This document shows, piece after piece, positions 10,269 to 16,123 of a stretch of 49,644 bases of DNA. Numbering within the stretch: position 1 is the first letter of the stretch; every line of letters starts with the position of its first letter. Origin of the DNA: Sneathiella sp. (GTDB lineage: Bacteria > Pseudomonadota > Alphaproteobacteria > Sneathiellales > Sneathiellaceae); assembly GCA_017643685.1 (NCBI GenBank), contig JAEPMY010000010.1, positions 1 through 49,644 on the forward strand. The letters run 5' to 3'. The translations under genes and the position numbers were made by a program. Below the pieces are notes generated by a model. That model made no database searches. It worked only from the letters and a program-made list of their open reading frames with translations, and was not told where the DNA came from.

Positions 10269-13200
10269 TTAAATATCATGGACATCCTGAACGCCAGGTA
10301 CGTATTTCAGCGCCTGCCGCACTTCGGGAGAGATATTGAAACGATGCTCAAGATCGAGCTCAACCTCTTTATTATCCCCCTCAAGATTTAGAACGAAAGC
10401 AACACGACCACGGCCGCGCCCCGCCCCCCCAAGGATCTGAGAAATCTGGCCAAGCGGATTGTCGTCATCAAGGAAGATACGCACCCCATCACCCGTCTGC
10501 GCGGCGACATGTTCAAGGCGCTGAACGGAGTTGGCCGTAATCCGCGGCTGGTCATTTTCAACATCCATATGGCCGCTGACGCTGACCACAACAGAATTAC
10601 CAACCTCCAGAATTTCGCGGCACTGCATCAAGGTTTCTTCGAACAAAGTCACTTCAAACGCACCCGCCGCATCTGAGAGCTGAACAAAGGCGAGTGCCTT
10701 ACCCTTCTTCGTCTTGATCTGACGCTTGCCCATAATTGTCCCGGCAAGCTTTGATGCACTTTCCGCTGCGGAAAGGTTAGAGAGAAACTTTATACTGCTT
10801 TTCACGCCCGCTTTATCCAATGTCTTGGCATAAGCATCAAGCGGGTGACCGGAAAGATAAAAACCAACAGCATCGAACTCTTGCTTCAGCTGCTCCATTG
10901 AGGTCCAACGACTGGCTTTCGCCATAACGGGCCCGACTGAGTTTTCAGATGCCCCGCCGCCACCGCCGAACAGGTTCACTTGCCCCGATCCACGCTCTTC
11001 TTCCATCTGCTGCGCATGACGAAGAATATTTTCCAATGAGGCAAAAGTTTGTGCCCGGTCCCCATTTAAAACATCAAACGCACCTGCCCGCACAAGATTT
11101 TCAGCTTGTCGCTTATTCAGATGTTTTGGGTTCAACCGGGAGGCAAAATCAGAAATGTCTTTGAAAGGCCCATTCTGGCGGCGCTCCTCCACGATACCGG
11201 CCATGGCATCCCGGCCCACATTCTTGACCGCGGCCAAAGCATACCGAACCGCCCCCTCGTCCCCCTCGAATTCAACGTTAAATTCGACTTCGGACTGGTT
11301 CAGGCACGGCGGATAAAGCGGAATACCGTTCTTTTCCATATCCTGCCGGAAAATGTTCAGCTTATCCGTATTATTGATATCGAGGCTCATGGACGCCGCC
11401 ATAAACTCAACCGGATAGTTCGCTTTCAAATAAGCCGTATGATAGGAGACGAGCGCATAAGCCGCCGCGTGCGATTTGTTGAAACCATAACTCGCAAATT
11501 TCGCCACCAGATCGAAGATATGACTGGCCTGTTTTGGATCAACGCCCTGCTCTTCCGCCCCATCACAGAAACGAGCCCGCTGCTTATCCATCTCCTCTTT
11601 AATCTTCTTACCCATAGCGCGGCGAAGCAAATCCGCTTCGCCAAGGCTGTATCCAGCAAGAACCTTCGCGATCTCCATCACCTGCTCCTGATAGATGATC
11701 ACGCCATAGGTTTCTTCCAGAATATGCTCAAGCTTTGGATGAAGAAGGTTTGGCTCCTCCTCACCATGCTTACAGCGGATATAGGTGGGAATATTTTCCA
11801 TTGGGCCCGGACGGTAAAGGGCCACAATCGCGATAATATCCTCAAAGGCGTCAGGGCGCATCTTCCGCAGCATATCGCGCATGCCCGAACTCTCGAGCTG
11901 GAACACGCCGACCGTATCGCCGCGGGTCAACAGCTCAAACGTCGCCTTATCATCCAGTGGGATCGAAGAGTAATCGATTTCAATTCCCCGTTTGGCAATC
12001 AAATCCTTCGCCCGGTCCAACACGGTCAAAGTCTTAAGACCCAAGAAATCGAACTTCACCAGCCCCGCCGTTTCCACATATTTCATGGAATATTGCGTCA
12101 CTGGCATGTCAGAGCGAGGGTCTCGGTACAGCGGAACCAGCTCATCAAGCTCCCGGTCCCCGATCACAACGCCCGCCGCATGGGTGGAGGCATGTCGATA
12201 CAAGCCTTCAAGCTGCAATGCAATTTCAATTAGGCGCGCAACCTCTGGATCATTCCGCTGTGCTTCCCGCAAGGGAACTTCAGAATCCAAAGCTTCCTGC
12301 AATGTCATCGGGTTTGCAGGGTTTGACGGGATCAGCTTACTGATGCGGTCCACCTGACCATAAGGCATCTGCAACACGCGCCCCACATCGCGGATCGCCG
12401 CCTTAGCTTGCAACTTACCAAAAGTGATAATCTGCGCCACCTGATCATGACCATATTTATCCTGCACATAACGGATAACGCGTTCCCGCTTATCCTGACA
12501 GAAGTCGATATCAAAGTCGGGCATGCTGACACGTTCCGGGTTCAGGAACCGCTCAAACAGCAAACCAAAGCGAAGGGGATCCAGATCCGTAATGGTGAGC
12601 GCCCACGCCACCACGGAGCCAGCACCGGAGCCACGCCCGGGCCCCACCGGAATATTGTGCTCCTTTGACCACTGAATAAAATCCGAAACGATCAGGAAGT
12701 AGCCCGGGAAGCCCATCTGGTTAATGATGCCCGTCTCATATTCCAACCGCTCCCAATATTCTTTGGCTTTCTCCTCACGGGTGGCAGCGTCCATATCGTC
12801 GGTAAAAACCGCATGCTCAAGACGTTTGCGAAGCCCTTCTTCTGCCATCGCGCGCAGCTCTTCCGCCTCGTTCCGCCCCGCGCCTGAATCAAAGGCTGGC
12901 AGAATTGGATCACGAACGGGAGATAAAACGGCGCAGCGCTGCGCGATGACAACGGTGTTATCAATGGCCTCTGGCAGGTCACTGAAAAGCGCCTTCATCT
13001 CATCAGCAGATTTGAAATAATGTTCTTCGGTGCGACGGGGGCGCTCCAACTCACCGACATAAGAGCCAGACGCGATACACAAAAGCGCATCATGGGCGTC
13101 ATACATTTTCCGCTCAGGGAAGAAACATTCATTGGTCGCCACGAGCGGGATATCATATTCATAGGCGAGCTCTAGAAAGCGTGGCTCGGTACGTTGTTCC

Positions 13201-13748
13201 GACTCAATATTATGGCGCTGAATTTCCATATAAAGGCGACCGTCAAAAACCGCCTTCAATCGCGCAAGCAGCTCAACCGCCTCTTCATCCTGATCTGAGA
13301 GGATCAATCGGCCGAGCGGTCCGCCAGCACCGCCGGTCAGGCAAATAATACCATCGCTATGATTTTGAAGGACCTCGAAAGGGACCTGTGCGGTCTCCCC
13401 TGCCTCTGTTTTCAAAAAGGCATGAGAGGTCAATTTCAGAAGATTATAATAACCCGCATCATTTTGGGCGAGTAGAACAAGAGGTGTTGGTTCAGGACGA
13501 CGGCCATTTCGCTCTAGCGGGCCCTCACTGGTCAGAGCAATCTGACACCCCATGATAGGCTGCACCCCGGCCCCCGGCAGCGTCAATGATGCCTCAAGAC
13601 TGCCGAACATATTACTTGTATCTGTGATTGCCACCGCAGGCATGGCGTATTGATCACAAAGCTTGGTCAGCATCTTGACCGGGATCGCGCCCTCTGAGAG
13701 GGAATAAGCGGTATGAACCCGAAGATGTACAAACCCGGCATGTGACAT
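10269..13748 (-). CDS. dnaE: DNA polymerase III subunit alpha
   Basis: Replicative polymerase catalytic subunit, 1159 residues, equal to the E. coli length. In order: PHP domain (VHLRVHTAYSLSEGAIPVKM to about 280), palm with the catalytic pair in MPDFDIDFCQDKR (about 395-410), the third catalytic Asp region (LVKFDFLGLKTLTVLDRA), fingers (YGVIIYQEQVMEIA, DLLRRAMGKKIKEEM), helix-hairpin-helix (SRLNPKHLNKRQAENLVRAG), a Gly-rich linker, and the OB fold (LAGTIMGKRQIKTKKGKALA). The ATG at 13746-13748 has GGAAGG seven bases upstream. An in-frame GTG at 13790 overlaps the likely -10 box. A DnaA box and an SOS-controlled small gene lie directly upstream. Confidence 0.97.
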   Translation of the reverse strand: MSHAGFVHLRVHTAYSLSEGAIPVKMLTKLCDQYAMPAVAITDTSNMFGSLEASLTLPGAGVQPIMGCQIALTSEGPLERNGRRPEPTPLVLLAQNDAGYYNLLKLTSHAFLKTEAGETAQVPFEVLQNHSDGIICLTGGAGGPLGRLILSDQDEEAVELLARLKAVFDGRLYMEIQRHNIESEQRTEPRFLELAYEYDIPLVATNECFFPERKMYDAHDALLCIASGSYVGELERPRRTEEHYFKSADEMKALFSDLPEAIDNTVVIAQRCAVLSPVRDPILPAFDSGAGRNEAEELRAMAEEGLRKRLEHAVFTDDMDAATREEKAKEYWERLEYETGIINQMGFPGYFLIVSDFIQWSKEHNIPVGPGRGSGAGSVVAWALTITDLDPLRFGLLFERFLNPERVSMPDFDIDFCQDKRERVIRYVQDKYGHDQVAQIITFGKLQAKAAIRDVGRVLQMPYGQVDRISKLIPSNPANPMTLQEALDSEVPLREAQRNDPEVARLIEIALQLEGLYRHASTHAAGVVIGDRELDELVPLYRDPRSDMPVTQYSMKYVETAGLVKFDFLGLKTLTVLDRAKDLIAKRGIEIDYSSIPLDDKATFELLTRGDTVGVFQLESSGMRDMLRKMRPDAFEDIIAIVALYRPGPMENIPTYIRCKHGEEEPNLLHPKLEHILEETYGVIIYQEQVMEIAKVLAGYSLGEADLLRRAMGKKIKEEMDKQRARFCDGAEEQGVDPKQASHIFDLVAKFASYGFNKSHAAAYALVSYHTAYLKANYPVEFMAASMSLDINNTDKLNIFRQDMEKNGIPLYPPCLNQSEVEFNVEFEGDEGAVRYALAAVKNVGRDAMAGIVEERRQNGPFKDISDFASRLNPKHLNKRQAENLVRAGAFDVLNGDRAQTFASLENILRHAQQMEEERGSGQVNLFGGGGGASENSVGPVMAKASRWTSMEQLKQEFDAVGFYLSGHPLDAYAKTLDKAGVKSSIKFLSNLSAAESASKLAGTIMGKRQIKTKKGKALAFVQLSDAAGAFEVTLFEETLMQCREILEVGNSVVVSVSGHMDVENDQPRITANSVQRLEHVAAQTGDGVRIFLDDDNPLGQISQILGGAGRGRGRVAFVLNLEGDNKEVELDLEHRFNISPEVRQALKYVPGVQDVHDI

Positions 13749-13782
13749 GGAACGACCTTCCAATTGAGACTTTATTCGGCCC

Positions 13783-13791
13783 ATTATCACA
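13783..13791 (-). promoter_or_regulatory. Extended -10 box, probable dnaE promoter
   Basis: TGTGATAAT on the minus strand fits the extended -10 form TGnTATAAT with one mismatch, 34 bases before the dnaE start. No good -35 hexamer precedes it, which extended -10 promoters can tolerate. Confidence 0.4.
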
Positions 13792-13827
13792 TACCTTTTT
13801 CAAAAGATAAGATCTTGACTCCCGCCA

Positions 13828-13849
13828 ACAGAAAATTTTCTGTGGATAA
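13828..13849 (-). promoter_or_regulatory. 16-bp palindrome joined to a perfect DnaA box upstream of dnaE
   Basis: ACAGAAAATTTTCTGT (13828-13843) is a perfect palindrome, and the minus strand across its edge reads TTATCCACA (13841-13849), an exact DnaA 9-mer. It lies about 95 bp before dnaE. DnaA acts as a transcription factor in Alphaproteobacteria, so a link between initiator level and polymerase synthesis is possible. One such 9-mer per window is not far from chance. Confidence 0.4.
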
Positions 13850-13861
13850 ATCCTGAATTTC

Positions 13862-13969
13862 TTATCCGGTGAAGCTATGGACGATCTCCGCCCAGAAGAC
13901 GAGCGTCGCCATTACACTCCCAAATACGACAAGTTCGAAACCGCTTTTTACAAGTTTGATTTTGCTCAT
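13862..13969 (-). CDS. 35-residue single-span membrane protein, probable SOS-induced SidA-like division inhibitor
   Basis: The ORF begins at ATG 13967-13969 with a strong ribosome site (GGAGG, 5 bases upstream) and ends at TAA 13862-13864. The product has a basic N-terminus (MSKIKLVKSG), one hydrophobic span (about residues 11-29, FELVVFGSVMATLVFWAEI) and a short polar tail (VHSFTG). Its promoter carries an exact alphaproteobacterial LexA box, so expression should be SOS-induced. Caulobacter SidA is a 29-residue, single-span, LexA-controlled peptide that blocks division through FtsW; this gene matches it in size, topology and control. I see no residue-level proof of homology, so function is inferred. 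A membrane peptide toxin is the main alternative. It lies 113 bp upstream of dnaE and may be co-transcribed with it. Confidence 0.75.
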   Translation of the reverse strand: MSKIKLVKSGFELVVFGSVMATLVFWAEIVHSFTG

Positions 13970-13996
13970 ATCAGCCTCCATTAATCTGTTGAGGCG

Positions 13997-14025
13997 ATAA
14001 TGTTCTTTTTTTGTTCTCATGTCAA
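13997..14025 (-). promoter_or_regulatory. Near-consensus promoter of the 35-codon gene
   Basis: Minus strand: TTGACA (14020-14025), exactly 17 bp, CATTAT (13997-14002). Transcription would start near 13990, giving a leader of about 20 bases before the ATG, which contains the GGAGG ribosome site. The -35 is perfect and the -10 matches at four of six positions. Confidence 0.75.
14002..14016 (-). promoter_or_regulatory. LexA operator (SOS box) GAAC-N7-GAAC
   Basis: Minus strand GAACAAAAAAAGAAC, a direct repeat of GAAC with seven bases between. This is the form bound by alphaproteobacterial LexA (Caulobacter, Rhodobacter, Sinorhizobium types). It fills the spacer between the -35 and -10 of the promoter above and touches the first base of the -10, an ideal repression position. 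A further inverted pair, TGTTCTC (14012-14018) and GAGAACA (14033-14039), overlaps it. Confidence 0.78.
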
Positions 14026-14108
14026 ACAAAAGGAGAACATTTTTATTTTATCCAAATATATCAGCACCTTGACTTTATCGAGGGATACGATTTTTTAATG
14101 AGAAATAC

Positions 14109-14153
14109 GAATCAATATAATCAAACAAGAATCAGATTAGGTCGTAAGAATCA
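14109..14153. repeat. Three GAATCA repeats spaced about two helical turns
   Basis: GAATCA occurs at 14109-14114, 14129-14134 and 14148-14153 (20 and 19 bp apart), with a related AATCA at 14119-14123, in the AT-rich gap between the lolD terminator and the SOS promoter. Otherwise I see nothing in 14041-14152. Phased repeats may be a protein-binding array, or chance in AT-rich DNA. Confidence 0.3.
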
Positions 14154-14175
14154 AAAAAGGGCGCCATAGGCGCCC
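14153..14175 (-). terminator. Intrinsic terminator after lolD
   Basis: Minus strand GGGCGCC, TAT loop, GGCGCCC followed by six T (A-run at 14153-14158). It starts 28 bp past the lolD stop and separates the proS-lolCD unit from the SOS promoter. Confidence 0.88.
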
Positions 14176-14202
14176 CCTCTATAAAAGATCTATAATCAGA
14201 AA

Positions 14203-14883
14203 TTAGTCTTCAATCAGCTGATGATCCCTCACCTGAACAATCCGATCCATTCGGGCGGCGAGTTCCCGGTTATGAGTAGCGACAAGCGCACCCACATTCT
14301 GTTTTCGTAGCAAATTCACGAAATTCTCAAACACCATATCAGATGTTGCCTCATCCAGATTACCTGTTGGCTCATCTGCTAAAAGCAATGAGGGATGATT
14401 TGCAAGCGCACGGGCAATCGCAACCCGCTGCTGTTCACCACCAGAGAGACGCGCCGGACGGTGGGTCAATCGATGACTTAGCCCCATTAGCTCCAGAAGC
14501 TCCGTAGCGTTGTTCTTGGCTATGGATTTAGAAACGCCGGAAATCAGATTTGGCATCATCACATTCTCAAGCGCAGAAAACTCCGGCAGGAGATGATGGA
14601 ACTGATACACAAAGCCGATGTCATTGCGGCGAATACGGGTGCGTTTGTTATCTTTTGATGCCGTGCAATCCTCACCATTGATCAGAACTTTACCACTGGT
14701 TGGTGGCTCCAAAAGTCCTGCAATCTGCAACAAAGTGGATTTACCAGCACCGGACTGCCCCAGCAGCGCCACGATCTCGCCCGGGCGAATGCTCAGATTA
14801 ACCGCCTGTAAAATCTCCAATCTTTCACCAGCCTGCTCAAACACACGGGTGACGTTTTCAAGTTGCAACACCGGACTATTCAT
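14203..14883 (-). CDS. lolD: Lipoprotein-releasing ABC transporter ATPase LolD
   Basis: ATPase that powers release of outer-membrane lipoproteins from the inner membrane to LolA. All ABC motifs are present in 226 residues: Walker A GQSGAGKST, Q-loop VYQFHHLLPEFSALENV, signature LSGGEQQRVAIARAL, Walker B LLLADEPTGNLD, and the H-loop VATHN. The Q-loop FHHLLPEF is typical of LolD rather than of MacB. I use the ATG at 14881-14883, which overlaps the permease stop by 8 bp and so suggests coupled translation; a longer frame to 14958 would run deep into the permease gene. Confidence 0.95.
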   Translation of the reverse strand: MNSPVLQLENVTRVFEQAGERLEILQAVNLSIRPGEIVALLGQSGAGKSTLLQIAGLLEPPTSGKVLINGEDCTASKDNKRTRIRRNDIGFVYQFHHLLPEFSALENVMMPNLISGVSKSIAKNNATELLELMGLSHRLTHRPARLSGGEQQRVAIARALANHPSLLLADEPTGNLDEATSDMVFENFVNLLRKQNVGALVATHNRELAARMDRIVQVRDHQLIED

Positions 14884-16123
14884 AGCGAAGCGCCTCCACC
14901 GGATCGAGGCGCGCCGCGCGCCAAGATGGGTAAATAGTCGCCGCCAGCGAGATGACAAGCGCCATAATCACGACAGATGTCACTTCCGATGGGTCAACCT
15001 TCGCTGGCAGATTAGAGAGGAAATAAATCTCTGCTGAGAATAGCTCCGCCCCTGTCAGACCTTCGATAATCTGTTTGATCTCGTCAATATTCGCACAAAA
15101 CCCGAGCCCCAACAGAAAACCAAATAAGGTTCCGATGACACCAATGCTCGCCCCGGCAATGAAGAAGACCCGCATGATCATCCCCCGCGTCGCCCCCATC
15201 GTACGAAGGATCGCAACATCCCTGCCCTTATCTTTCACCAGCATGATCAAGCTGGAGATAATATTGAAAGCCGCCACCAGGATAATGAGCGTGAGGATCA
15301 GGAACATCACATTCCTCTCCACTTCAAGCGCATTAAAGAAGCTGGCTCGGGATTGCTGCCAATTATAAATGAACGCTCGCATGGTGACGGCATTAATGAC
15401 GTCGGAGCGGATTTTAAGGGCCGTGTCCGGATCGGTCGCAAAGACCTCGAGCGAGGTAACCCCTTCCCCATATTTAAAATAGGTTTGCGCAGCACTGAGC
15501 GACATGAAGAGATAACCGCTGTCATATTCATACATACCCGTGTTGAACAATCCGCCAACCGTGTATGTCTTAACCCGCGGCACATTACCAAAGACAGTGC
15601 TGGTTGTCTTAGGCGAGAGAAGTTTGACCTTATCGCCAACAGACAACCCAAGGCTCTGTGCAAGACGATAGCCGATCAGGATCGATTTCCCTTCTGCATA
15701 CCCCTCGGTAGAGCCAAGGAAAATATTCTCGGACAAAACTGTCAGGCTATCCAGATCCTGCGGGGTCAAGGCCCGAACCAATGCGCCGCTGGCATTTGAT
15801 CCAGCCGTTGCCATCACCTGACCCTCGATCAGCGGGGTGACACGCACCACGTCATTCAATGCAGAAAGGCGATTAACAGTGAGATCATAGTCAACGAGCA
15901 GACCATTCTCCGGGGCTTTGATCTCGTAATGTCCGTTCATACCCAGGATCCGGTCCAGCAATTCTGCCCGGAACCCGTTCATAACGGACATCACGATAAT
16001 GAGTGTCGCCACCCCAAGCCCAATTCCCAGAAAAGAAAAGAGTGCGATTACCGAAATAAAACCTTCTTGTCGCCGCGCCCGCAAATAACGGAGCGCCATA
16101 GTCCATTCAAATCTGGAAAACAC
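14876..16123 (-). CDS. lolC: Lipoprotein-releasing ABC transporter permease (LolC/LolE family)
   Basis: Inner-membrane permease that works with LolD to extract lipoproteins. The 415 residues have the family layout: first membrane span (FISVIALFSFLGIGLGVATL), the signature IIVMSVMNGFRAELLDRILG, a periplasmic domain (about 50-270), then three C-terminal spans (MFLILTLIILVAAFNIISSL onward) with the coupling-helix region VAILRTMGATRGMIMRVF. Only one permease gene is present, as in many Alphaproteobacteria, which would give a homodimer. The start is GTG 16121-16123, 6 bp after proS; an ATG at 16099 would cut off the conserved N-terminus. Confidence 0.93.
   Translation of the reverse strand: MFSRFEWTMALRYLRARRQEGFISVIALFSFLGIGLGVATLIIVMSVMNGFRAELLDRILGMNGHYEIKAPENGLLVDYDLTVNRLSALNDVVRVTPLIEGQVMATAGSNASGALVRALTPQDLDSLTVLSENIFLGSTEGYAEGKSILIGYRLAQSLGLSVGDKVKLLSPKTTSTVFGNVPRVKTYTVGGLFNTGMYEYDSGYLFMSLSAAQTYFKYGEGVTSLEVFATDPDTALKIRSDVINAVTMRAFIYNWQQSRASFFNALEVERNVMFLILTLIILVAAFNIISSLIMLVKDKGRDVAILRTMGATRGMIMRVFFIAGASIGVIGTLFGFLLGLGFCANIDEIKQIIEGLTGAELFSAEIYFLSNLPAKVDPSEVTSVVIMALVISLAATIYPSWRAARLDPVEALRYE

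Follow-up and report, generated by a model that had tools for sequence, protein, structure and literature searches.

SidA of Caulobacter, the closest described counterpart of the peptide considered here, is reported as a 29-residue inner-membrane protein which interacts with FtsW and FtsN (PMC4211646) and whose gene, CCNA_02004 (PMC10769358), is controlled by LexA (PMC4211646, PMC12700426); suppressors of SidA in ftsW and ftsI are known (PMC4211646). The LexA motif of Caulobacter is given as GTTCN7GTTC (PMC9578287, PMC12700426), and its dnaE gene as CC1926 (PMC1839093). DidA of the same bacterium is also a small single-span division inhibitor, but its description sets it apart: it has 71 residues, is SOS-independent, being induced by DriD and not through LexA, and binds FtsN (PMC4211646). 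In Gram-positive bacteria, a different lineage, YneA and SosA resemble SidA by description as SOS-controlled membrane proteins stopping division, and FtsW is the reported target of YneA (PMC13396833). TisB and DinQ of Escherichia coli, again compared by description, are SOS-linked single-span membrane peptides too, but act on the membrane (PMC11575346, PMC3567139). Searches of open-access literature, judged from titles and the beginnings of abstracts, turned up no description of SidA relatives outside Caulobacter, and the matches to "SidA homolog" concern other things of the same name.

Organization of the locus

The locus lies in a stretch of Sneathiella sp. DNA of 49,644 nucleotides, analysed as a whole and referred to below as the window. 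It comprises the following features:

14203..14958, minus strand: lolD, the upstream neighbour (frame as listed; the true start may be internal)
14154..14180, minus strand: intrinsic-terminator-like hairpin after lolD, between lolD and the peptide gene
14024..14038, minus strand: second, degenerate operator-like repeat GTTCTCCTTTTGTTT, overlapping the -35 hexamer
14020..14025, minus strand: -35 hexamer TTGACA, from the promoter scan
14002..14016, minus strand: predicted LexA operator GAACAAAAAAAGAAC, GAACN7GAAC inside the -35/-10 spacer
13997..14002, minus strand: -10 hexamer CATTAT, from the promoter scan
13975..13979, minus strand: ribosome-binding site GGAGG, 5 bases (CTGAT) ahead of the ATG
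13862..13969, minus strand: 35-codon ORF for a single-span membrane peptide, a SidA family candidate (from translation, conservation and selection)
13841..13849, minus strand: 9-mer TTATCCACA, between the peptide gene and dnaE
10269..13790, minus strand: dnaE, coding for the DNA polymerase III alpha subunit (start at GTG 13790 or ATG 13748)

The ORF, for which the preliminary description names no strand, is encoded on the minus strand, and translation of the opposite strand gives a different product. It starts with ATG at 13969, ends with TAA at 13864-13862, and its product is MSKIKLVKSGFELVVFGSVMATLVFWAEIVHSFTG. The 35 residues comprise a basic N-terminus (K3, K5, and K8) and one hydrophobic span, with a hydropathy of 2.01. 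Purine-rich sites like GGAGG are visible ahead of most of the homologous Sneathiella ORFs. The preliminary description, made from the letters of the window, had reported a short ORF with GGAGG 5 bases before its ATG, a basic N-terminus, a single membrane span, and a position before dnaE, all of which were borne out by translation and by reading of the sequence. A gene of 35 codons is tiny and easily overlooked. No NCBIfam model matches any of the 20 Sneathiella peptides, and the sole Pfam match, that of YmiC to one of the 20 at E = 0.081, was judged to be due to chance; the peptides are therefore nameless in both collections.

The neighbours recognized by NCBIfam code for LolC/E, LolD (TIGR02211, 271.8 bits, below the cut-off of 307.75), DnaE, and ribosomal protein S2. 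The dnaE gene lies directly downstream of the peptide gene and is matched by NF004226 with 1506.9 bits; its product begins with MSHAGFVHLR when read from 13748. The hairpin at 14180-14154 has 12 pairs and a T-rich tail (one such site found versus 0.4 expected), and, judged from its sequence, would close the lolD unit and separate it from the peptide gene.

Promoter and predicted LexA operator

The two hexamers are separated by a 17-base spacer, agree with the consensus in 10 of 12 positions, and form the only promoter-like site found in a scan of 13700-14250, where 1.3 would be expected by chance. The spacer is filled by GAACAAAAAAAGAAC, which agrees exactly with the LexA motif of Caulobacter, and a repressor bound there would be expected to block RNA polymerase. 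At a position similar to that of the degenerate repeat GTTCTCCTTTTGTTT, one relative (L039) has an exact GTTCN7GTTC. In all 21 Sneathiella loci with the gene, the chosen start is preceded at a distance of 45-58 bases by a GAACN7GAAC box, and the LexA-type promoter described earlier ahead of the ORF was recovered as a predicted operator conserved to this extent.

The motif by itself is not above chance genome-wide, with 82 copies on both strands of 3.43 Mb versus 101 of the backwards pattern, nor is it in the window, with one copy versus 1.62 expected. At this chance-level frequency the box was rejected as sole evidence; its significance rises above chance because it is conserved in 21/21 Sneathiella loci and the frame behind it is under purifying selection.

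One lexA gene was found in the source genome (PF01726, 54.8 bits; TIGR00498, 167.8 bits), and GAACTTTTGTAGAAC, with the same box motif, lies 36 bp before its start. Inspection covered 28 stretches around boxes, eight of them delivered by the genome-wide motif scan and 20 picked by eye from the 82, which together hold 30 boxes; 23 of these fall inside longer ORFs and seven are intergenic by the rule applied. The intergenic ones include the boxes of the peptide gene and lexA, and those situated directly before an rSAM_PA0069 radical SAM gene (C23, L005) and an ImuA-like gene (C84, L363), the latter matched with 28.7 bits, below the cut-off of 150. A box ca. 235 bp ahead of an aminotransferase-like ORF (L364) was not accepted as marking an SOS gene.

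Conservation and selection in Sneathiella

The peptide gene directly precedes dnaE in 21 of 24 Sneathiella genomes, the source genome included, always with the box. As to the three misses, the contigs of G007 and G013 end just before the site, while G010, a 65% complete genome, has dnaE with other DNA upstream of it. The G010 locus (L385) retains TTATCCACA and dnaE, with unrelated DNA at the place of the peptide gene, which suggests loss, rearrangement, or faulty assembly; since dnaE stands there without the upstream peptide, the gene may be dispensable.

In the 20 distinct Sneathiella sequences M1, K8, F11, E12, F16, F25, W26, and V30 are invariant. The pattern of synonymous and non-synonymous change, whose absence would, according to the preliminary description, have spoken against the gene, is present, with pN lower than pS in 210 of 210 pairs, a median dN/dS of 0.137 over the 48 unsaturated pairs, and variability of 0.174, 0.168, and 0.451 at the first, second, and third codon positions, respectively. 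The ORF is a real, selected coding frame. Its shortness and the commonness of the box motif could point to a chance ORF, a reading which is left with practically no probability by the conserved frame and length and by the purifying selection, and which was rejected.

In the one genome of the sister genus (G024), the corresponding position is taken by MFETQKLLRQGIEAVVMLAALYAIFTWATLIDGLIG, with GAACAAAACAGGAAC ahead of it; the peptide receives 7.6 bits from the Sneathiella profile. The search which established the presence of the peptide in the 21 genomes also gave matches away from the dnaE locus, i.e., those in G042 and G034 and four second matches with E > 0.3. Searched class-wide, the Sneathiella-only profile matches 21 of 387 genomes at E ≤ 0.1, six of them Sneathiella; the other 15 (E of 0.007-0.09) were judged to be chance matches. 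In the Sneathiella loci L034, L036, and L038, the peptide stop codon is closely followed by an inverted repeat (GTTGCGG ... CCGCAAC type), as judged by eye; none was seen in the window.

A dnaE-linked peptide family

The survey of regions upstream of dnaE in alphaproteobacteria comprised 190 loci, i.e., the best 80 matches of a scan plus 30 and 80 from a class-wide dnaE search; five are Sneathiella loci and a few have little upstream DNA. The class-wide search matched 217 of 222 genomes, and the latter 80 loci were chosen among the matches listed, mostly one per family. The exact box occurs in 47 of the 190 loci, and in 36 it is followed within 130 bases by an ORF of 22-50 residues with a membrane span; the same rule applied with five altered motifs gave 0, 0, 1, 1, and 1 loci, and on the opposite strand two. 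A profile built of all members recognizes 41 of the 190 loci on the forward strand and none on the other, many of these loci having contributed to the profile, and 38 of the 41 have the exact box.

The family is composed of single-span peptides of 26-47 residues, and its carriers include Caulobacter, Phenylobacterium, Brevundimonas, Maricaulis, Aquisalinus, Stappia, Rhizobium, Sinorhizobium, Neorhizobium, Bradyrhizobium, Tardiphaga, Aureimonas, Ahrensia, and Methylorubrum. It is patchy, since 149 of the 190 dnaE loci are without a member; nine loci have the box and no member, and among the 80 best-scan loci 56 lack a member, including the Rhodobacteraceae-type, Acetobacteraceae-type, and Mesorhizobium loci of the set. 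The earlier proposal of an extension of SOS division-inhibitor peptides to one more alphaproteobacterial lineage has to be widened, since what emerges looks like a family spread patchily over several lineages. In the Bradyrhizobium-type loci L116, L125, L129, and L154, the first box is followed, ahead of the start codon, by another one in the opposite orientation (GTTCTTCATACGTTC or GTTCTTCATATGTTC).

The strongest test of the family is a whole-genome search free of any positional constraint. The profile of 37 members, run against 387 genomes, gave 30 hits at E < 1e-4, six of them in Sneathiella, and all 30 adjoin dnaE with an exact box nearby; 13 of the hits carry a peptide used in the profile and 17 do not. 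A further 18 matches fall between 1e-4 and 0.01, several of them in long frames or with a stop codon, and at least two (G077 and G136) adjoin dnaE. The first class-wide family profile had given 18 matches at E ≤ 0.002, 15 beside dnaE and three (L164, L168, and L169) elsewhere.

So constant an association with dnaE, together with the finding that a scan of the window revealed no terminator-like site between the peptide gene and dnaE, could also mean that the ORF is a leader peptide or upstream ORF setting dnaE expression, the purpose being damage-induced transcription of dnaE. This explanation is improbable, as it is the amino acid sequence that is under selection, the distance from the peptide stop codon to the dnaE codons for FVHLR varies from 128 to 184 bp (16 Sneathiella loci measured), and dnaE has conserved upstream elements of its own. 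One of these is TTATCCACA, which we take to be the DnaA-box consensus and which is present in 21/21 Sneathiella loci with the peptide gene; the conserved block following it may, as judged by eye, be the promoter of dnaE itself. In the survey, 16 of the 190 loci have TTATCCACA no more than 300 bp ahead of the dnaE match (11 forward and seven reverse, two having both), and five of these are Sneathiella loci; four other 9-mers gave 0 or 1.

Relation to SidA of Caulobacter

The family of genomes designated f59 holds those of Caulobacter: in its genus g291, 54 of the 55 genomes are recognized by the PopZ model, which among 14 controls gives a match only in Caulobacter vibrioides. The Caulobacter-group profile matches 71 of the 79 f59 genomes at E ≤ 0.1 and 67 below 1e-6. 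Among the 30 best f59 loci dnaE is near in all, and of the 27 peptides readable in full 23 have exactly 29 residues; an exact box is present in 20 of these 27 loci, and one with at most one mismatch in all 27. The PopZ protein of G479 is identical over 132 residues to the chain of PDB entry 6xry, presumably C. crescentus PopZ, and this genome was taken as C. vibrioides/crescentus; G531, whose PopZ differs from 6xry, was dropped as a candidate. Between lolD and dnaE, G479 has a gene for a single-span peptide of 29 residues, accompanied by one exact box and two near-boxes. This peptide appears to be SidA by its length, its place, and the locus numbers, that of sidA, CC1927, adjoining that of dnaE, CC1926.

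The gene order lolD - peptide - dnaE is common to the window and the Caulobacter genomes, and SidA, brought in by the preliminary description as a precedent, proves to be more than an analogy. The two systems share a very short single-span peptide with a basic N-terminus, LexA-type boxes, and a location between lolD and dnaE in the C. vibrioides-like genome. They differ in peptide length (29 residues in SidA versus 35 in Sneathiella) and in promoter anatomy: 26 of 27 Caulobacteraceae loci have at least two boxes (allowing one mismatch), while the window has one exact box filling the promoter spacer.

The sequences themselves can be matched only through intermediate lineages. A direct hhalign comparison of the Sneathiella and Caulobacteraceae peptides alone gave a probability of 0.4%, and the best score of a Caulobacteraceae-only profile on the Sneathiella peptides was 0.6 bits. 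A profile built without either group scores the window peptide at 15.3 bits and the C. vibrioides-like peptide at 17.5 bits, a value reached by none of 300 shuffles. With a profile including Caulobacteraceae and free of Sneathiella, the window ORF ranks first among the 1368 stop-to-stop frames of the window (13.4 versus 5.9 bits), and the window peptide scores 15.1 bits, again not reached by any of 300 shuffles. Applied to all 21 Sneathiella peptides, the same profile gives 5.6 to 24.0 bits; for six of them the score is equalled by at least two of 300 shuffles, and for two of the six by 11 and 15. In profile-profile alignment by hhalign, the score of 23.7 exceeds the highest value from 200 column shuffles, 20.5; with a smaller set the probability was 71.4%. 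The shared register begins with a basic residue next to which stands D, E, S, or N, and runs over 17 positions to what is, in many of the lineages, a tryptophan. Taken together, the common place, promoter, and register make common descent the likelier explanation, which for the pair of Sneathiella and Caulobacter is however transitive.

Proposed function

Its position, promoter anatomy, and profile-level kinship make the peptide quite probably a SidA-family SOS division inhibitor. In the mechanism we propose, DNA damage would activate RecA, leading to cleavage of LexA, which would leave its site between the promoter hexamers. Bulk synthesis of the peptide would follow; it would insert in the membrane with the lysine-rich N-terminal end on the cytoplasmic side, and its uncharged helix would contact the late divisome (FtsW/FtsI/FtsN), holding the assembly inactive, so that septum synthesis would wait for repair. 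LexA binding, SOS induction, membrane topology, binding of FtsW, FtsI, or FtsN, and the division block are what we infer from these features by analogy with SidA. No single residue of it singles out FtsW as the target.

A peptide of this size class, with one span and predicted LexA-type control, would also suit an SOS-induced single-span peptide which acts on the membrane itself and not on the divisome, causing depolarisation and dormancy as TisB or DinQ would. TisB-like toxins have an amphipathic, charge-bearing helix and an antisense RNA partner. In the Sneathiella peptides, unlike in an amphipathic channel former, the 12 residues following F11-E12-x are uncharged in 21/21 cases, and the peptide found at this locus in Caulobacter appears from its length and place to be SidA, which makes a TisB-like action unlikely, though somewhat less so than a leader role. 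These two are the main rivals of the SidA-type division inhibitor.

Biological significance

The locus may bear on the way in which alphaproteobacteria other than Caulobacter pause division after DNA damage. SidA-type peptides appear to form an alphaproteobacterial family anchored at dnaE, and a simple locus rule, a membrane peptide of 26-47 residues preceded by a LexA-type box and immediately followed by dnaE, points to candidates in Rhizobium, Sinorhizobium, Bradyrhizobium, Methylorubrum, Brevundimonas, Maricaulis, and Sneathiella. More speculatively, and with a probability that we put below even, SidA may be one branch of an old family of dnaE-tied microproteins of alphaproteobacteria, in which the damage-induced promoter may co-transcribe the division block and dnaE as one unit, dnaE being served also in undamaged cells by its own DnaA-box promoter. 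If this is true, the supply of polymerase would rise while division is held.
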